A stretch of 64,000 nucleotides of DNA from Williamsia faeni (GTDB lineage Bacteria; Actinomycetota; Actinomycetes; Mycobacteriales; Mycobacteriaceae), in assembly GCA_003202005.1 (NCBI GenBank), contig QJJF01000001.1:775099-839098 (forward strand), in the 5' to 3' direction. Shown here one piece after another: positions 7,944 to 16,466 of this stretch. Below the pieces are notes generated by a model that ran no database searches, was not told the DNA's origin, and was given only the letters and a program-made list of their open reading frames with translations. The position numbers were made by a program, and so were the translations under genes. How positions within the stretch are numbered: the stretch's first letter is position 1; the number at the start of each line of letters is the position of its first letter.

Positions 7944-8139
7944 CGCCGACCGTGCCAATCCGTCGAGCGTGCCAAAACTACCGTCGAGCGTGCCCCAATT
8001 ACCGTTGACCGTGCCAAAGATGTTGGCGCACCGGTAGTTTCGGCACGCTCGGCGGTTTTTTGGGCACGCTCGACGGCGGTTTGGGCACGCTCGGCGGCGG
8101 TTTGGGCCCGCTCGGCGGCGGTTTGGGCCCGCTCGGCGG
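7944..8139. repeat. Two converging arrays of 21-bp repeats between convergent genes
   Basis: Three plus-orientation units begin at 7960, 7981 and 8002, with a shortened degenerate copy at 7944. Five minus-orientation units occupy 8035-8055, 8056-8076, 8077-8097, 8098-8118 and 8119-8139. All full units are exactly 21 bp and share the core CCGNCGAGCGTGCC followed by an A-rich stretch. The two arrays point toward a 12-bp centre (8023-8034), so the locus could form a large cruciform or mRNA hairpin. The last units are almost identical, implying recent expansion. It may terminate transcription from both sides. Confidence 0.8.
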
Positions 8140-8144
8140 AGGGT

Positions 8145-9503
8145 CTAGGCAGTACGGGCGAGGGCCTCGATGGGATCGCTGTAGATCGCATCGAGTGAGA
8201 CCGCACCGGCGGCCTGTTGCTGAACCGTTGCGCCGGAACGGGACACGCGAACGTCGCGTCGCGGGGCGACAGAGGTTTCGCGGACCGCCTGGGCGACCAT
8301 CGGAAGGGTCGACGGCGCATCGGTGAATGCCTGGCCACCGAGAACGATGTGATCGGGATTGAAGATGTCGCCGATCAGACCGACCGCACGACCCAGGATC
8401 ACCGCACGTTCGGCCAGGATTGCCCGGGCGACATCATTGCCCTCGGCCGCCAGTTGGTGCACCTCGTCGACGTTGTCGATCGCAAGGCCGGCCGCAATCG
8501 CGGCATCCACGATGCCGGTGTCACTGACCGTCGACTCGAGCTGTCCGGTTCCGGTCGGATCGAGCAGTTCGGTCTTGCCGACCGGGAAGTGTCCGATCTC
8601 CGGGGGTCCACCGGCCGGGGTGTAAACGCTGCCGCCGACGGTGAATGCGATACCCACCGATTCACGGGCGTAGAAGTAGACGAAGCTGCCACCCTCTTTT
8701 GCCGGGTCGACCAGCAGTTCGGCCTGGGGGTTGAGCAGCAGTTCGGCGGCGGCCATGGCTTCGACGTGGGAGGCCACCGAGATCGGGAGTCCGATGACCG
8801 ACGCGAGCACCTCGCCGACCGGTGCGGAATCCCACGCCAATCGCGGATGGGTGTTGCGTCCGGCCTTGTCGACCCGACCGGCCAGCGCGACGCCTGTCCA
8901 CAGCATCTTCTTGTTCGGCCAGCGCGACAGGAATCGCTTGGCACTCAGACCGATCGACGTCAGGGTCTGCTCCGGCGTATCGGCAACCGGTGTCGGGATC
9001 TGAATGGCACCGACAACACGGTGGAAGAGGTCGTGGGTGGTGATCGACGTGACCTTGAGGCCGATATGGATGCCCACGGTCAGGAAGTCTGCGGAGTTCA
9101 GTTCGAACGGCAGACGAGGGCGGCCGATTGCACCGGCCGGAGCCAGATCGGCTCGTTCGCGCAACAGACCGGCCTTGAGAAGTGCGCTGACCTGCCGGTT
9201 CACTGTCGAGATGCTGAGCCCCGAAGCGCTTGACGCCGCATCGCGGAACACCGGTCCGTGCAGACGCGCAGCCCGCAACACAACTGCTGCCGGCTTGGTC
9301 GACAGATGTAGCTGCGGGTTCGCGATGTGAATCTTGGCTGCCTTCTTCGGGCCGGGAACACCCTGCGGACGGGCAGGGCGACCGGGCGCGGTGACGCGAG
9401 AGCCGACGAGGGGTCGCGAACCGCTGCGCTCGGACGGGCGGACGGGGGTAGAGCGGGTGTCGGTGGAGCCAGAAGTGATGCGGTGATCAAGTGTTGCAGT
9501 CAT
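8145..9503 (-). CDS. ROK-family transcriptional regulator, degenerate and cysteine-free
   Basis: The 452-residue protein has a basic, disordered N-terminus (1-55), a winged-helix region (about 75-125, SASGLSISTVNRQVSALLKA) and a ROK domain (about 140-440). The ROK phosphate-binding glycines are altered (TVGIHIGLKVT instead of the DIGGT type). The usual zinc cluster CxCGxxGCxE is absent, with EIGHFPV retained but no cysteine after it; the whole protein contains no Cys. It is therefore probably a regulator without kinase activity. It is divergent from the organosulfur genes and preceded by a cysteine-containing leader peptide, suggesting it controls sulfur acquisition. GAGGA lies before the ATG. 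Confidence 0.82.
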   Translation of the reverse strand: MTATLDHRITSGSTDTRSTPVRPSERSGSRPLVGSRVTAPGRPARPQGVPGPKKAAKIHIANPQLHLSTKPAAVVLRAARLHGPVFRDAASSASGLSISTVNRQVSALLKAGLLRERADLAPAGAIGRPRLPFELNSADFLTVGIHIGLKVTSITTHDLFHRVVGAIQIPTPVADTPEQTLTSIGLSAKRFLSRWPNKKMLWTGVALAGRVDKAGRNTHPRLAWDSAPVGEVLASVIGLPISVASHVEAMAAAELLLNPQAELLVDPAKEGGSFVYFYARESVGIAFTVGGSVYTPAGGPPEIGHFPVGKTELLDPTGTGQLESTVSDTGIVDAAIAAGLAIDNVDEVHQLAAEGNDVARAILAERAVILGRAVGLIGDIFNPDHIVLGGQAFTDAPSTLPMVAQAVRETSVAPRRDVRVSRSGATVQQQAAGAVSLDAIYSDPIEALARTA

Positions 9504-9576
9504 CGGAAGTCCTCGTCGAATGATCGCGCCAAAAACCCCATGGTTTCGGTGCGAAGTTTTGTTGATGCGGAAAATG

Positions 9577-9590
9577 CCGCGAGCGCGGCG
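9577..9590 (-). terminator. Candidate attenuator hairpin between leader peptide and ROK gene
   Basis: On the minus strand, GCCGCG-CT-CGCGGC is a perfect 6-bp stem starting about 9 nt after the leader-peptide stop and followed by ATTTT. Its position between the leader ORF and the ROK start is what an attenuator would have. The T-tract is short, so Rho-dependent control is equally possible. Confidence 0.4.
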
Positions 9591-9598
9591 AGATCAGA

Positions 9599-9661
9599 TC
9601 AGGACATTCGACAACAGAGGACGCGAGCGAGTGGCAGACGACATCCCAGCGCGGTGATCAC
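9599..9661 (-). CDS. Cysteine-containing leader peptide upstream of the ROK gene
   Basis: A 20-codon ORF reads MITALGCRLPLARVLCCRMS, starting with GTG at 9661 behind a perfect GGAGG (9670-9674) at 8-nt spacing. Three of its codons are cysteine (residues 7, 16, 17), all TGT, whereas high-GC genomes prefer TGC. It ends 95 bp before the ROK start on the same strand, with a GC-rich hairpin between. Short cysteine-rich leader ORFs ahead of sulfur genes are known in mycobacteria as translational attenuators. Assignment here is inference from position, ribosome-binding site and composition. Confidence 0.6.
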   Translation of the reverse strand: MITALGCRLPLARVLCCRMS

Positions 9662-9707
9662 ATAGGTGACCTCCGGGATGTGGTGACCGGTGCTCGACAT
9701 AGGCAAA

Positions 9708-9737
9708 AACATATCAGCGACGCGACCCGGCTGCCAA
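9708..9737 (-). promoter_or_regulatory. Predicted sigma-A promoter for the leader peptide/ROK transcript
   Basis: On the minus strand TTGGCA (9732-9737, 5 of 6 matches to TTGACA) and TATGTT (9708-9713) are separated by 18 bp. Transcription would start near 9701, leaving about 40 nt before the leader-peptide GTG. No other good promoter is visible between here and the ROK gene. Confidence 0.5.
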
Positions 9738-9880
9738 CAATCCGCCTGGCGGCCGCACGTGATGTGAACCGGATGCGGCAGCGAAGCCAACACCCGTCGA
9801 AGACCGGTTCACCGGCGACAATAGACCCGGCGCCCTCCCGCTCGTCGACTTGGAATCACAGCGAACGAAATTGTGGAAAG

Positions 9881-9915
9881 GGATCGAGGCCGCGGCCCAC
9901 ACTGGGCTTCGATCC
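9881..9915 (+). promoter_or_regulatory. Hairpin in the leader of the ssuD-like gene
   Basis: GGATCGAGGCC (9881-9891) pairs with GGCTTCGATCC (9905-9915) as an 11-bp stem with one G-U wobble and a 13-nt loop. It ends 26 nt before the ssuD GTG and just upstream of the ribosome-binding site (GAAAGG). It may be an operator palindrome or an RNA element controlling translation. It matches no riboswitch I recognise. The rest of 9738-9880 shows no convincing feature. Confidence 0.45.
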
Positions 9916-9941
9916 TCGTTTCCAACAGAAAGGCACGTGAC

Positions 9942-11120
9942 GTGTCCCTGCATTTCCACTGGTTCCTGCCGACGTACGGCGACTCCCGGAATCTGATGGC
10001 AGGTGGTCACGGTTCGGACATGTCAGGCGATCGTCCGGCGACGCTGCGTTATCTGAAGCAACTGGCCGGCGCTGCCGAGGTCAATGGCTTCGAAGCCGTC
10101 CTCACACCTACCGGCATGTGGTGCGAGGACGCCTGGTTGTCGACGGCGATGCTCCTGGAGACCACCGACACCCTCAAGTTCCTGGTGGCGATGCGCCCGG
10201 GTCTGACCAGCCCGACGCTGGCGGCACAGATGGCAGCCACCTACCAGTGGCAGTCCCAGGGACGACTCCTCCTCAATGTCGTGACCGGTGGCGAATCCTC
10301 TGAGCAGCGCGCATTCGGCGACTTCCTCTCGAAAGACGCCCGCTACGAACGGTGCGGCGAGTACCTCGACATCGTCCGGCGTCTGTGGACCCAGGAAGGG
10401 CCGGTCGACTTCACCGGCAGGCACCTGCGGGTGCAGGGTGCCCAGCTCGCCCGTCGGCCCGATCCGTTGCCCCCGGTCTTCTTCGGCGGGTCCTCGGCGG
10501 CGGCCGGCGCCGTTGCCTCGAAGTTCGCCGACACCTATCTGACCTGGGGCGAGAAGCCCGACGCCGTCGCCGCCAAGCTCGACTGGATCCGCGGGCTGGC
10601 CGCTGCCGAAGGGCGCGAACTGACATACGGGATCCGGCTGCATGTCATCTCCCGCGACACCTCCGAGCAGGCGTGGGCAGAAGCCGACCGACTGCTCGGC
10701 GCGCTCGATCCAGCGGTGGTAGCCGGCGCTCAGCAGAACCTCGCGCAGTCCGAGTCCGAGGGACAGAAGCGGATGCTCGAACTCCACGGTGGCGGAGCCG
10801 CTTTCAACGCCGAAACCGGTGCCCGGTCATTGGAGATCTACCCCAACCTGTGGTCCGGCGTGGGCCTGGTCCGCGGTGGTGCCGGAACCGCACTCGTCGG
10901 ATCCCACGAGGAGGTCGCCGACCGGATCGCGGAATACGCCGCCCTGGGCCTCGACCACTTCATCCTCTCGGGTTACCCGCATGTCGAGGAGGCCTACCAC
11001 TTCGGTGAGGGCGTTCGTCCCCGGCTGATCAAGCGCGGATTGCTCGACGCCGACGATCACGCACCCGAACCGGTTCGTGGAGCATTCCTGACCTCGTACG
11101 AGCCCGCCAGCGCCTCCTGA
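9942..11120 (+). CDS. ssuD: FMNH2-dependent alkanesulfonate monooxygenase-like (SsuD family)
   Basis: SsuD-type enzymes use reduced FMN and O2 to release sulfite from alkanesulfonates during sulfur starvation. The 392-residue protein follows the family closely: FHWFLPTYGDSRNL at the N-terminus, LLLNVVTGG near residue 120, and DARYERCGEYLDIVRRLW. The GTG at 9942 is preferred over the frame start at 9873 because the family N-terminus begins there and AAAGG lies about 10 nt upstream. It opens a three-gene run with sfnG and sfnB. No SsuABC importer or SsuE flavin reductase is in the window, so reductant and substrate supply come from elsewhere. Confidence 0.88.
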   Translation: MSLHFHWFLPTYGDSRNLMAGGHGSDMSGDRPATLRYLKQLAGAAEVNGFEAVLTPTGMWCEDAWLSTAMLLETTDTLKFLVAMRPGLTSPTLAAQMAATYQWQSQGRLLLNVVTGGESSEQRAFGDFLSKDARYERCGEYLDIVRRLWTQEGPVDFTGRHLRVQGAQLARRPDPLPPVFFGGSSAAAGAVASKFADTYLTWGEKPDAVAAKLDWIRGLAAAEGRELTYGIRLHVISRDTSEQAWAEADRLLGALDPAVVAGAQQNLAQSESEGQKRMLELHGGGAAFNAETGARSLEIYPNLWSGVGLVRGGAGTALVGSHEEVADRIAEYAALGLDHFILSGYPHVEEAYHFGEGVRPRLIKRGLLDADDHAPEPVRGAFLTSYEPASAS

Positions 11121-11151: not shown

Positions 11152-12270
11152 ATGACCACCGAAAAGATTGCCGATCAGATCAAATTCGCCTACTGGGTGC
11201 CCAACGTCAGTGGCGGCCTGGTCACCAGCGACATCGAACAGCGCACCGGCTGGGACTTCGAATACAACAAGAAGCTGGCCCGGACGGCGGAGAACAACGG
11301 CTTCGAGTACGCCCTGTCCCAGGTGCGGTACATGGCCTCCTACGGCGCCGAGTTCCAGCACGAGTCAACAGCTTTCAGCCTCGCACTCCTGGGAGCCACG
11401 GAGAAGCTGAAGGTCATCGCGGCCATCCACCCCGGACTCTGGCATCCCGCGGTACTCGCGAAGTTCGGTGCCACCGCCGACCACCTGTCCAACGGACGCT
11501 TTGCGATCAATGTGGTGTCCGGCTGGTTTTCCGGCGAGTTCAAAGCCCTCGGTGAACCGTGGCTCGAGCACGACGAGCGTTACCGTCGCAGCGCCGAGTT
11601 CCTCGAGGTGATCCGGAAGATCTGGACCGAGGACAACGTCGAATACGCCGGCGACTTCTACCGGATCCGCGACTTCACCCTCAAGCCGAAGCCGCTCAAT
11701 ACCCCGGAGCGCCCGAATCCTGAACTGTTCCAGGGTGGTAACTCCACCGCGGCCCGCAACAACGGTGGCCGCTACGCCGACTGGTACTTCTCCAACGGCA
11801 AGGACTTCGACGGCGTCACCGAGCAGGTGGAGGACCTGCGGGCCGTCGCACGAGCGCACAGCCGTGAGGTCAAGTTCGGACTCAACGGATTCATCATCGC
11901 CCGCGACACCGAGGCCGAGGCACACGACACCCTCCGCGAGATCATCTCGAAGGCCAATCGTCCTGCGGTGGAAGGCTTCCGCGACGCGGTACAGCAGGCG
12001 GGTGCGTCGACCTCCGACAAGAAGGGCATGTGGGCCAACTCCTCATTCGAGGACCTCGTCCAGTACAACGACGGCTTCAAGACCAAGCTCATCGGCACCC
12101 CTGAGCAGGTCGCCGAACGGATCGTCGCCTACAAGCGACTCGGAGTCGACCTGGTTCTCGGCGGCTTCCTGCACTTCCAGGAAGAGATCGAGTACTTCGG
12201 AGCCAAGGTGCTCCCGCTGGTTCGTGAGATCGAGGCGGCCGACAAAGCCGCAGGTGTCAGCGCGTCGTGA
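11152..12270 (+). CDS. sfnG: Dimethylsulfone monooxygenase SfnG-like
   Basis: SfnG uses FMNH2 to convert dimethyl sulfone to methanesulfinate, feeding sulfur to SsuD-type desulfonation. The 372-residue LLM-fold protein carries family features such as FAYWVPNVSGGLVTSDI at the N-terminus, FAINVVSGWFSGEFKALGEP (about 118-137) and HDERYRRSAEFLEVIRKIW. It follows ssuD by 31 bp and overlaps the downstream acyl-CoA-dehydrogenase-like gene by 4 bp. This order is typical of sulfone-utilisation operons. Confidence 0.88.
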   Translation: MTTEKIADQIKFAYWVPNVSGGLVTSDIEQRTGWDFEYNKKLARTAENNGFEYALSQVRYMASYGAEFQHESTAFSLALLGATEKLKVIAAIHPGLWHPAVLAKFGATADHLSNGRFAINVVSGWFSGEFKALGEPWLEHDERYRRSAEFLEVIRKIWTEDNVEYAGDFYRIRDFTLKPKPLNTPERPNPELFQGGNSTAARNNGGRYADWYFSNGKDFDGVTEQVEDLRAVARAHSREVKFGLNGFIIARDTEAEAHDTLREIISKANRPAVEGFRDAVQQAGASTSDKKGMWANSSFEDLVQYNDGFKTKLIGTPEQVAERIVAYKRLGVDLVLGGFLHFQEEIEYFGAKVLPLVREIEAADKAAGVSAS

Positions 12271-13493
12271 GCAGCACCGCAATCGCGACCCGGATCGACT
12301 CTGCGGAACAAGCACTTTCGACCGCACGCACCCTGGCGGCACACTTCGCCACCGGGGCGGTAGCACGCGATCGCGACCGCAAACTCCCGTACCGCGAGCT
12401 CGACGAGCTCTCCGCCAGCGGTCTGCTGGCGATCACCGTGCCGGCTCAGTACGGCGGCGCCGACCTGGCCCCGAGCGTCGTTGCCGAGGTCTTCCGGATC
12501 CTGGCCGCGGCCGATCCGAACATCGCGCAGATCCCCCACAGCCACTTTGTGTACCTGAATCTGTTGCGGCTGGCCGGGACTCCGACACAGCAACGGGATC
12601 TGTTCTCGGATGTTCTCGGCGGCGGTCGTATCGCCAACGCGCAGTCCGAGCGCGGTGGCAAGACCATTGCCGCCATCTCCACAACCATCAAGCCCGAATC
12701 GGGGAATCTGCGGCTCGACGGTTCGAAGTTCTACTGTACGGGTTCCCTGTACGCCCATACTCTGGCGGTACTCGCCCGACTTGAGGATCCGTCCGGTGAA
12801 TCAGGTTTGGAGCCAGGCGAATATGTGGCGTTCATACCGGCTGACATCGCCGGCGTCCGCATCGTCGACGACTGGAACGGCCTCGGGCAGCGCACCACCG
12901 GCAGCGGGACAATCTCGTTCGAGGCGGTCACCGTACATCCGAAGCAACTGGTGGCGCGGGCCAAGGCGATCAACGCACCGGCGGGCTACGGCGCCTTCGC
13001 CCAGTTGCTGCACGTTGCCATCGACGTCGGCATCGCAGCCGGCGCCCTGCGCGCCGCAACCGGATTCGCCCGCACGAAGAGCCGTCCGTGGTTCGAGGCC
13101 GCTGTCGATCGGGCCATCGATGATCCACTGCTGATCCAGCGTTTCGGTGAACTCGCCGTCGAGGTCCGGACCGCCGAGGCAACACTGGTCGCTGCCGGAA
13201 ACGCCGTCGACGCCACGTTCTCGTCGACACCGGCCGACACGACGGAGCGTGCGGCGGAAGCCTCGATCGCGGTCGCGACGGCCAAGATCGTTGCCGACCG
13301 GGCCGCCAACGAGGTGTCGTCGGCGCTGTTCGAGGTGTCGGGAACACGCAGCGCCGCCGCTGATCTCGGACTCGATCACTTCTGGCGCAATGCCCGCACC
13401 CACACCCTGCACGATCCGGTGCGCTGGAAGTATCAGCACATCGGGCGGGCTCTGCTCCACGATGCGCCACCGCCGTTGCACGGCGTCATCTGA
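12267..13493 (+). CDS. sfnB: SfnB-family acyl-CoA dehydrogenase-like sulfur acquisition oxidoreductase
   Basis: The 408-residue protein has the acyl-CoA dehydrogenase fold with the SfnB-type central block (GSKFYCTGSLYAHTLAVLAR, about 152-171) and the C-terminal segment ending LHDPVRWKYQHIGRALLHD. SfnB/DszC-like flavoproteins are thought to oxidise organosulfur compounds or assist sulfone use. The exact reaction is not established. GTG 12267 overlaps the sfnG stop by 4 bp, so the genes are coupled. It is convergent with, and only 7 bp from, the BrkB gene. Confidence 0.85.
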   Translation: MSSTAIATRIDSAEQALSTARTLAAHFATGAVARDRDRKLPYRELDELSASGLLAITVPAQYGGADLAPSVVAEVFRILAAADPNIAQIPHSHFVYLNLLRLAGTPTQQRDLFSDVLGGGRIANAQSERGGKTIAAISTTIKPESGNLRLDGSKFYCTGSLYAHTLAVLARLEDPSGESGLEPGEYVAFIPADIAGVRIVDDWNGLGQRTTGSGTISFEAVTVHPKQLVARAKAINAPAGYGAFAQLLHVAIDVGIAAGALRAATGFARTKSRPWFEAAVDRAIDDPLLIQRFGELAVEVRTAEATLVAAGNAVDATFSSTPADTTERAAEASIAVATAKIVADRAANEVSSALFEVSGTRSAAADLGLDHFWRNARTHTLHDPVRWKYQHIGRALLHDAPPPLHGVI

Positions 13494-14543: not shown

Positions 14544-15347
14544 CTACTCCAGCCGGTCCAGTAGAGACCGTGCGTCGTGTGGCGCACGCACTTTGGCGTC
14601 GTTGTCGAAGTAGACATACACGTCGGCACCGCGGGCGCGCTCGGAGAAGCGCGATGCCCACCGGTCGAGGGCGTCATCGGTGTATCCACTGGTGTAGAGC
14701 TCGTGATCGCCGTGGAGCCGGGCATATACGAAATCGGCGGTCACCTCATCGATGACCGGGAACTTACCCGCCGAATCAGCGAGAACCAGGGCGATCCCCT
14801 TCTCCCGCAACAGCTCCGGTACCTCCGGGTTGTCAAAACTCGGATGACGCACCTCCATCGCGTGCCGGAGCGGTCGATCGGCATCCGTGGTGGTCCAGGC
14901 CCGCCCGGCGACATGGTCGCTGTGGCCCTCGGACATGGCTGCGGCCTGGGCGGTGGTCCGCGGCAGCAGGTCGGCAAACGCCGCAACGGCTTCGGGATCG
15001 AAGGGCAGATTCGGGGGCAGCTGCCAGAGCATCGGCCCCAGCTTGGGCCCGAGCGCCAAGACCCCCGAGGCCAGGAACGTCGCAAGCGGTTCGTCGACGC
15101 CGACCAGGCGCTTCATATGCGTGATGAACCGGGGCCCCTTGACGGAGAACACGAAGTCGTCGGGAACCTGCTGCGCCCACTTCTGATAGCTCGTCGGACG
15201 TTGCAGCGCGTAGAAGGAACCGTTGATCTCGACCGAGTTGAGGGTGCGGGACAGATACTCCAGCTCGCGACGCTGCGCCAGGCCAGGTGGATAGAACGCA
15301 CCTCGCCAGGGGGGATAGACCCACCCGGAAGTCCCGACTCGAATCAC
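14544..15347 (-). CDS. DUF72 domain-containing protein
   Basis: The 267-residue protein is a single DUF72 (YecE-like, TIM-barrel) domain: IRVGTSGWVYPPWRGAFYP at the N-terminus, LEYLSRTLNSVEINGSFYAL, then a conserved AMEVRHPSF and FVYARLHGDHELYTSGY. No reaction is established for the family, although the barrel resembles sugar isomerase/endonuclease IV folds. It is divergent from the sigma-factor gene, sharing an 81-bp intergenic region in which I see no clear promoter. Confidence 0.88.
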   Translation of the reverse strand: MIRVGTSGWVYPPWRGAFYPPGLAQRRELEYLSRTLNSVEINGSFYALQRPTSYQKWAQQVPDDFVFSVKGPRFITHMKRLVGVDEPLATFLASGVLALGPKLGPMLWQLPPNLPFDPEAVAAFADLLPRTTAQAAAMSEGHSDHVAGRAWTTTDADRPLRHAMEVRHPSFDNPEVPELLREKGIALVLADSAGKFPVIDEVTADFVYARLHGDHELYTSGYTDDALDRWASRFSERARGADVYVYFDNDAKVRAPHDARSLLDRLE

Positions 15348-15428
15348 TTCTCAACATGTACACCACGAAGCGCCCGAATTGCCCTTTTGGGCTGGTCGGT
15401 GTCGGACCACTCCCGTAATCTGTGTGAC

Positions 15429-16466
15429 ATGACTGTCGAGGCAACAGTAGACGCGGACTTCTTGGAAATCGCCGAGCCGTTCCGCCGCGAATTGCTCGCG
15501 CACTGCTATCGAATGATGGGCTCTCACCACGACGCCGAGGACCTGCTCCAGGAGACCTACATCCGGGCCTGGCGCGGATACTCCAACTTCGACGGCCGCG
15601 CCTCGGTTCGCACGTGGCTCTACAAGATAGCCACCAACACCTGCTTGACCGCACTGGGTTCCAAACAACGCCGGCCGTTGCCCTCAGGTCTCGGTGGCGA
15701 CTCGTACGACCCCCAGGCCCCGCTGCTACAGGATAACGAGGTGCCCTGGCTCGAGCCGTTTCCCGACAACGAGGAGACGTTGTCCGAGACCGCGGATCCG
15801 GCGAACATTGTCGGCGCCCGCGAATCGATCCGGCTCGCGTTCATCGCCGCGCTCCAATACCTGCCCGAGCGCCAGCGGGCAGTCCTGATCCTGCGTGACG
15901 TGTTGCAGTGGCGGGCGGCAGAGGTCGCCGAGACGCTCGACCTGACCACCGCGACCGTCAACAGCCTGCTGCAGCGGGCCCGGGCCCAGCTCAAAGAGGC
16001 CTCACCGGAACGTGACTCCGTCACCGAACCCGACGACGCAGCACAGCGGGAACTGCTTCAGAAGTGGGTCGAGGCCTTCGAGACCTACAACATCGATGCC
16101 ATCGTGGCACTCTTCACCGACAAGGCCATCTGGGAGATGCCACCGTTCACCGGTTGGTATCAGGGACCGGCCGTCATCGGCAGTCTCATCGAGCACAACT
16201 GCCCGGCCGAAAAGGCCGACGACATGGTGCTACTCCCGGCGACCGCCAACGGTCAGCCGGCATTCGGGTTGTACATGCTCGATCCCGAGGACGGTGTACA
16301 CCGCCCTTTTCAGCTGCAGGTCCTCGACATCACACAATCCGGTGTCGCGCATGTCGTGGTGTTCTTCTCGGAAACGATGGAAGACGATTTTGCCCGATTC
16401 GGGTTGCCGGCAACCGCATCGCCGACAACCCGGACAGCTGTTGCTCAGCCGTTGATCGCCGACTGA
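15429..16466 (+). CDS. ECF sigma factor with C-terminal SnoaL-like domain (SigG/SigX5 type)
   Basis: The 345-residue protein has sigma region 2 (LLAHCYRMMGSHHDAEDLLQ, about 19-38), a long linker, region 4 (QRAVLILRDVLQWRAAEVAE near 152) and a SnoaL/NTF2-like C-terminal domain (about 210-325). This is the ECF41/SigG-SigJ type, in which the C-terminal domain tunes activity instead of a classic anti-sigma factor. The frame runs open far upstream, but homology starts at ATG 15429. It overlaps the convergent VOC gene by 22 bp; in SigG/ECF41 loci a small neighbouring gene is often the target. Confidence 0.88.
   Translation: MTVEATVDADFLEIAEPFRRELLAHCYRMMGSHHDAEDLLQETYIRAWRGYSNFDGRASVRTWLYKIATNTCLTALGSKQRRPLPSGLGGDSYDPQAPLLQDNEVPWLEPFPDNEETLSETADPANIVGARESIRLAFIAALQYLPERQRAVLILRDVLQWRAAEVAETLDLTTATVNSLLQRARAQLKEASPERDSVTEPDDAAQRELLQKWVEAFETYNIDAIVALFTDKAIWEMPPFTGWYQGPAVIGSLIEHNCPAEKADDMVLLPATANGQPAFGLYMLDPEDGVHRPFQLQVLDITQSGVAHVVVFFSETMEDDFARFGLPATASPTTRTAVAQPLIAD

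Follow-up and report, generated by a model that had tools for sequence, protein, structure and literature searches.

A conserved cysteine-codon leader ahead of a ROK-family regulator gene in Williamsia and its relatives, and its probable role in translational attenuation

Layout of the leader and the regulator gene

We analyzed a 64-kb stretch of the Williamsia faeni genome (64,000 nucleotides of contig QJJF01000001.1; hereafter, the window), in which a short open reading frame (ORF) with cysteine codons lies ahead of the gene for a ROK-family regulator. A sequence-only reading of this DNA had proposed that the short ORF is a leader peptide that responds to cysteine shortage, that a terminator hairpin carries the response, that the cysteine-free regulator then acts on the divergent sulfur genes, and that such a circuit is undescribed. 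Comparisons of sequence show that the leader is real and lend good support to the idea that it responds to cysteine; the terminator and the claim of novelty fared less well. In the window, the leader, promoter, and ROK features described here all lie on the minus strand, and the upstream ORF is abbreviated uORF:

9708..9737 (-): promoter, with a -35 box TTGGCA at 9737-9732, N18, and a -10 box TATGTT at 9713-9708
9599..9700 (-): leader ORF (uORF), probably leaderless, 33 codons, ATG at 9700, encoding MSSTGHHIPEVTYVITALGCRLPLARVLCCRMS and then a stop codon
9656..9671 (-): palindrome within the uORF, here GGTCAC-CTAT-GTGATC and commonly GGTCAC-N4-GTGACC, an RNA hairpin or a DNA site
9611..9616 (-): Cys-Cys codons TGT TGT, with a further TGT Cys codon at 9643-9641
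9605..9622 (-): anti-Shine-Dalgarno segment GTCCTC-TGTT-GTCGAATG inside the uORF, which pairs with 9522-9509 in the predicted minimum free energy (MFE) structure
9576..9589 (-), or to 9571 with ATTTT: GC hairpin GCCGCGCTCGCGGC and then ATTTT, not a conserved terminator
9509..9522 (-): CATTCGAC plus GAGGAC, with the ROK Shine-Dalgarno sequence, sequestered in the predicted fold
8145..9503 (-): ROK-family regulator, 452 amino acids (aa), no Cys, zinc motif replaced, PF00480 at 55.2 bits versus a cutoff of 22.9

The elements on which the earlier proposal was built are all present: a short ORF with three TGT codons, a GGAGG, a TTGGCA-N18-TATGTT promoter (found once, versus a mean of 0.1 in shuffled sequences), and a ROK ORF without cysteine. 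The cysteine-codon leader ahead of the ROK gene stands, but GTG 9661 as its start probably does not: the same reading frame is open farther upstream, as far as an ATG at 9700, which is 7 nt past the -10 box. With so short a spacing, the leader mRNA is probably leaderless, and transcription would start at or adjacent to this ATG. When we searched both strands of the window for ORFs of 6-60 aa that contain Cys-Cys, start with ATG or GTG, and have TANNNT 6-8 nt upstream, the uORF at 9599-9700 was the only one. No model in NCBIfam or Pfam matched the leader peptide, and the single match to Rfam was below threshold and lies elsewhere in the intergenic region.

The regulator is assigned to the ROK family because of its PF00480 domain and not because of the zinc motif: CxCGxxGC is typical of the family but is absent from the window's ROK and its relatives. 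Profile A2 matched Mlc (1z6r) at 5.1e-14, starting at Mlc residue 15. For the winged helix-turn-helix that repressors of the family carry at the N terminus, the match to HTH_24 (17.6 bits) was under the cutoff of 21.9. Directly downstream of the gene (8040-8145), short GC-rich tandem repeats similar to ggtttgggcacgctcggcggc can be seen by eye.

Conservation of the leader and of its cysteine codons

Searching genome contigs with the ROK protein turned up 29 named loci, from Williamsia, from Gordonia, and from one record labeled Kitasatospora; "30 loci" refers to these and the window. Related sequences are included in all of our counts, which are not counts of independent cases. The core of the leader is present in the window and in all 29 named loci. 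In sequence, a TANNNT ends exactly 7 nt before the in-frame ATG in 30 of 30 loci, and GGAGG is retained in 18. The alignment of the leader peptides (21 of the 30 leaders, which make up profile A1) has 13 invariant columns; another profile, A4, comprises 39 of 56 distinct leaders.

More broadly, 264 of the 401 genomes of the GTDB family (including W. faeni itself), from 25 of 31 genera, have leader matches at E <= 0.1. Of these genera, 19 contain matches at 1e-6 or better; the other six have weak ones only (0.005 or worse). At the level of the order, 20 of 298 genomes match the leader at E <= 0.01, and 17 of these belong to the same family. The three order-level matches from outside the family (E of 0.001-0.004) were treated as noise; two of them sit within a 438-aa open frame. 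Among the matches listed, we picked 34 further leader loci from 14 genera, and the profile of the window's ROK group found a ROK gene downstream of the leader in 31 of them.

At L079, L091, and L094, the leader precedes a gene for a solute-binding protein that is divergent from a sulfatase gene. Pfam confirmed SBP_bac_5 and Sulfatase in L079 and L094, and TauD adjoins the sulfatase in L094; the transporter and sulfatase assignments for L091 rest on its translation. Each of these three genomes carries two leaders; the second was read in two of them, where it precedes ROK (L093 and L095).

We also selected 14 genomes for their absent or weak leader matches, which yielded 10 ROK loci (L124 comes without upstream DNA). 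In five of the 10, a Cys-rich ORF follows a -10 box at 6-7 nt: the ORFs of L125, L126, L127, and L131 encode other peptides, and L129 has a diverged form of the leader. L133 was left out of the five: the three Cys of its ORF include no Cys-Cys, and its -10 box is at 8 nt.

The cysteine codons, whose loss among relatives was to count against the proposal, are conserved. The first codon of the pair encodes Cys in all 64 leaders (as TGT in 63), and the second encodes Cys in 61. This use of TGT contrasts with the 14 ORFs of the window, in which TGC:TGT is 14:4. Other residues are constrained as well: in ALGxRLPLxRxLCC, the Ala, Gly, Arg, Leu, Pro, and Arg are identical in 64 of 64 leaders, with synonymous variation at most of the invariant residues (CTG encodes Leu in 62). 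For R, L, P, and R, this constancy comes in part from our own procedure, which found leaders by similarity and used that motif as the anchor. Across 37 dereplicated leaders, the ratio of nonsynonymous to synonymous variation (pN/pS) is 0.20 over the ALG..LCC core. These comparisons support selection to keep a cysteine-codon leader ahead of the ROK gene.

The leader has another conserved feature, as its VTY(V/M)T block encodes the palindrome GGTCAC-N4-GTGACC. Standard pairs fill 359 of 384 pair cells, versus 194 or fewer when the palindrome is slid, and the palindrome is present in the MFE structure of the window. Covariation in the palindrome was not above the slid controls (2 double changes, one of them in L104, versus 0-4).

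The lack of cysteine in the regulator is less general. Among the 30 Williamsia/Gordonia loci, 25 have a ROK with no Cys; in each of the other five, the aligned protein has a single Cys. Elsewhere, 24 of 31 ROKs behind the leader keep three or four Cys, and the zinc motif is visible in these 24 (partial in two cases, and with one change in L085); seven of 31 are Cys-free (in g7, g9, g12, g16, and g18). The Cys-free state goes back to loss of the ROK zinc motif. Four of the 10 further ROKs (L124, L126, L129, and L131) likewise have no Cys in their aligned part, so it has seemingly been lost more than once, which keeps alive the sequence-only reading's idea that the regulator economizes on sulfur. 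Cysteine is scarce in the window in general: 14 ORFs contain 18 Cys codons, and seven of these ORFs, including ROK, have none. A Cys-free ROK may be a designed feature of sulfur economy, with the Cys-free proteins in each of the three sets in favor of this and the 24 proteins with Cys and the scarcity in the window against it.

In the ROK tree, the window's clade (14 rows, 100/99) is apart from a second group with leaders (21 rows, 99/98), and several branches are long. W. faeni also has a second, diverged ROK (G000:C4:34995-36059, L092), whose position in the tree is unsure; a scan for a -10 box followed by a short Cys-Cys ORF found no Cys-Cys leader at L092.

A predicted switch that hides the Shine-Dalgarno sequence

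In the MFE structure of the window, GUCCUC and GUCGAAUG pair with CAUUCGAC-GAGGAC, and the UGUU between the first two is bulged. The leader folds with a z score of -1.91, and eight of 200 shuffled sequences fold equally well. The modeled cost of opening the Shine-Dalgarno sequence drops from 7.71 to 2.69 kcal/mol if a ribosome is placed on Cys-Cys, and this gain was reached by none of 40 synonymous shuffles (which were made without a reproducible seed). The mean gain is 2.41, versus a null of 0.30, for the 30 Williamsia/Gordonia loci and 0.96, versus 0.25, for the 31 others. For loci outside the named set, the ROK starts were picked by rule; the start in L083 is doubtful but was retained in the counts. 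A structure that hides the ribosome-binding site (RBS) and that a stalled ribosome would block is therefore predicted for the window and, on average, across loci.

We also compared each uORF's duplex with its own RBS to its duplexes with the RBSs of other loci. On average, the uORF's own duplexes beat the swapped ones: none of 5,000 permutations did as well, either for the 61 loci or for 46 dereplicated loci, and the 31 other loci gave similar results (0 of 5,000, or 1 of 5,000 for 29 dereplicated loci). Judged from sequence, the pairing between the uORF and the RBS coevolves on average over loci, although not in each of them.

If so, the switch would work as follows. With enough Cys-tRNA, the ribosome would pass Cys-Cys and depart from the uORF; the freed mRNA would fold, and the two segments beside the Cys codons would pair with the downstream region and hide the ROK Shine-Dalgarno sequence. 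Under cysteine shortage, the ribosome would stall on UGU UGU and cover the anti-Shine-Dalgarno segment, which would free the Shine-Dalgarno sequence and allow ROK to be made, as the mycobacterial precedent suggests. ROK might then adjust the genes for sulfur acquisition, a role that SsuR and CysR have in Corynebacterium; this is the weakest step. On the strength of the leaderless geometry, the conserved leaders and codons, the modeled folds, and the published precedents, we think it likely that the leader belongs with the polycysteine leaderless-ORF attenuators and controls translation in response to cysteine.

Several results weigh against this view. In 12 of 61 loci (three of 30 and nine of 31), the modeled gain falls below zero, with L095 at -4.03; the native sequence outscores more than 90% of its shuffles in just 15 loci of the 30 and 10 of the 31; and the opening-cost model used a single fixed ribosome footprint. 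Within Williamsia and Gordonia alone, the swap test is weaker (174 of 5,000 for 30 loci, or 30 of 5,000 for 17 dereplicated loci), and the swaps combine clades of unlike G+C content. In several loci (for example, L074, L087, L088, L090, L096, and L103), the uORF's own duplex is weaker than its average with other RBSs, and simple Watson-Crick runs between the end of the uORF and the RBS are convincing in only part of Williamsia/Gordonia. Finally, the divergent ssuD gene is no constant neighbor of the leader and ROK, being found in 10 of 29 named loci.

We considered whether the leader might instead control transcription, with an intrinsic or Rho-dependent terminator between the uORF and ROK. 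The sequence-only reading had cast the GC hairpin with ATTTT (9589-9571) in this role. Also, a passage of PMC4128351 gives a high ratio of 5' untranslated region to coding sequence for the Mycobacterium marinum and M. bovis orthologs of the regulator Rv0485 (a result that we also count in favor of the translational reading), and PMC1262725, in its discussion of mycobacterial cys operons, suggests Rho-dependent termination behind their Cys leaders. However, our scan of 9400-9960, which demands at least 5 T in 8, found no terminator-like sites (versus a mean of 0.5 in shuffles). Past the hairpin, the run of four Ts is lost in L009-L015, where ATTTT becomes ATTCC, ATCTC, or ATTTC. We therefore rejected the terminator as the main mechanism: sequestration of the Shine-Dalgarno sequence fits better, and the absence of a terminator together with the predicted, coevolving pairing leads us to read the leader as a translational attenuator. 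Attenuation of transcription seems improbable, although a contribution from Rho is possible.

Two other explanations seem less plausible still. If translation of the leader began at GTG 9661, with ATG 9700 unused, then the peptide would be VITALGCRLPLARVLCCRMS and a stop codon (9661-9599), which holds all three TGT codons. The GGAGG at 9674-9670 is well spaced from this GTG in the window, and 63 of 64 leaders have GTG or ATG at this codon (GTG in 56 and ATG in seven). But L104 has GAG at this position, GGAGG is missing from 12 of 30 loci, and the upstream ATG with its 7-nt spacing from the -10 box is invariant. Furthermore, the GGAGG of the window is part of Pro-Glu-Val codons, and the GTG can be explained by the palindrome inside the uORF. 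GTG 9661 as the only start was therefore rejected, and we consider it very unlikely that the real leader begins there, but it may be an extra internal start alongside ATG 9700. Alternatively, the short ORF might not sense cysteine at all: its peptide might act in trans, or the ORF might merely load ribosomes onto the ROK message. That residues besides Cys are conserved at the peptide level would fit a function of the peptide itself. However, the gap between the uORF and ROK is 92-187 nt in the 29 named loci and 71-202 nt in the 31 others (with starts as picked), which is a long way for simple coupling. And where the leader is replaced by other Cys-rich peptides (L125, L126, L127, and L131), cysteine is what persists. 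It would be quite surprising if cysteine were not sensed.

A more elaborate form of the attenuator is that the core, ALGxRLPLxRxLCC, acts as an arrest sequence in the exit tunnel, so that Cys-tRNA charging would be read by both codon and nascent chain. A ribosome that would otherwise pause only briefly at Cys-Cys would then be stalled decisively by the core. We raise this because the core is near-invariant as amino acids while its synonymous sites vary, but it is doubtful. If true, the leader before the transporter gene beside the sulfatase gene would extend the device to a small ribosome-directed regulon.

Neighboring sulfur genes, related systems, and implications

Divergent from the leader are three genes that are possible targets of the regulator:

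9873..11120 (+): SsuD-like alkanesulfonate monooxygenase, NF001939 at 437.7 bits (below the cutoff of 510), ORF start not refined
11152..12270 (+): SfnG dimethylsulfone monooxygenase, TIGR04021 at 627.9 bits (above cutoff)
12267..13493 (+): SfnB-family sulfur acquisition oxidoreductase, TIGR04022 at 477.1 bits (above cutoff)

Their adjacency weakly suggests a link to ROK; sfnG and sfnB are divergent in seven of the 29 named loci. In 17 Gordonia loci (L018, L019, L022-L025, and L027-L037), a sigma-factor gene similar to the one at 14577-16466 of the window replaces ssuD, and L017 and L020 have both genes, with ssuD adjoining the leader. Blocks such as TGGAATCA and TATTCTCGCCGGTGAACGCC (at about 9780-9860 of the window) recur, by eye, in many of the loci L009-L037. 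They lie between the leader and the divergent gene, beside ssuD and beside the sigma factor alike, and are possibly a site for the regulator or the divergent promoter. L014, which is titled Kitasatospora arboriphila, is nearly identical at this locus to Williamsia muralis, so the genome may be mislabeled.

On the other side, some 1 kb separates mshA from the leader-ROK unit ahead of it in G150 and G333, and 16 of the 32 genomes looked at have mshA within 8.5 kb downstream (a tally that uses the second leader of G142); in W. faeni itself, mshA is not near ROK. We take mycobacterial Rv0485 to be a ROK protein and mshA to be its neighbor, and the presence of mshA behind the leader and ROK in relatives fits that order.

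W. faeni also has a second leaderless ORF with poly-Cys, MQLGRELMLTRRRAIDFCRIANCCCLSR, at G000:C4:173447-174217 (L148 and L151), with a -10 box at 7 nt. It precedes a 322-aa ORF at a match to rhodanese, and we take it for a probable leader of the cysA2 type. Its core, LTRRR..D..R, is similar to leader peptides of Streptomyces.

Similar devices have been described in mycobacteria. Canestrari reportedly described, in 2020, polycysteine leaderless short ORFs as attenuators in M. smegmatis, in which the cysteine-dependent speed of the ribosome is said to control the translation of the next gene. The window shares with these a leaderless ORF with contiguous Cys codons and, as predicted, control of the following gene's translation. 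It differs in that it has a Cys pair or triplet and a regulator gene downstream, and in being known here from its sequence.

A closer match is Rv0485/Msmeg_0932: according to the legend of Fig. 7B in PMC4633059, a conserved, Cys-enriched, leaderless small ORF lies ahead of it. In both cases, then, a leaderless mRNA carries such an ORF before a gene for a regulator of transcription, which is what the published passages call Rv0485. We set the Rv0485 system beside the window by its published description, as a possible ortholog. The window differs in genus, in a ROK without the zinc motif and without any Cys, and in its neighbors ssuD, sfnG, and sfnB, and its peptide has a third Cys (ALGC) and a Val before LCC. 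A CRP binding site upstream of Rv0485 is mentioned in PMC4117774 and would be a possible further input to this group of regulators.

Links between Cys leaders, ROK proteins, and sulfur have also been published. Cys leader peptides of actinobacterial cys operons were predicted in 2005 (PMC1262725), and these, too, are short ORFs that carry Cys codons close to the stop. The title of Lyubetsky 2014 ("PF00480 or PF14340 domain proteins ... sulfur metabolism") pairs genes of the ROK family with sulfur, a likeness that we judge by the title only. In Corynebacterium glutamicum, SsuR and CysR are described as ROK-family regulators of sulfonate and sulfate use, and cysR is reported to be leaderless, in passages of PMC2580772; they resemble the proposed role of the window's ROK as ROK-family sulfur regulators. 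In the small genomes of g3, which we take for Corynebacterium, the ROK matches are only 93-107 bits. No leader homologous to the window's was seen in L132 or L133. In Rhodococcus, a ROK protein is listed as 18- to 33-fold up under dibenzothiophene (PMC8557817).

The circuit is thus not undescribed, as had been suggested: the Rv0485 leader (PMC4633059), the 2014 title that pairs PF00480 with sulfur, and SsuR/CysR (PMC2580772) predate it. Given the Rv0485 leader, the polycysteine attenuators, and the ROK sulfur regulators, the arrangement of leader and ROK belongs with a device already known, as a well-conserved relative, and is not a new kind.

The coevolving pairing offers a concrete model of the switch at the level of sequence. 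Rv0485-like regulators, which have been published mainly for pe/ppe expression, may serve sulfur supply. And because a translational sensor of cysteine is tied to a regulator of transcription, one check of Cys-tRNA charging could set the whole sulfur program.

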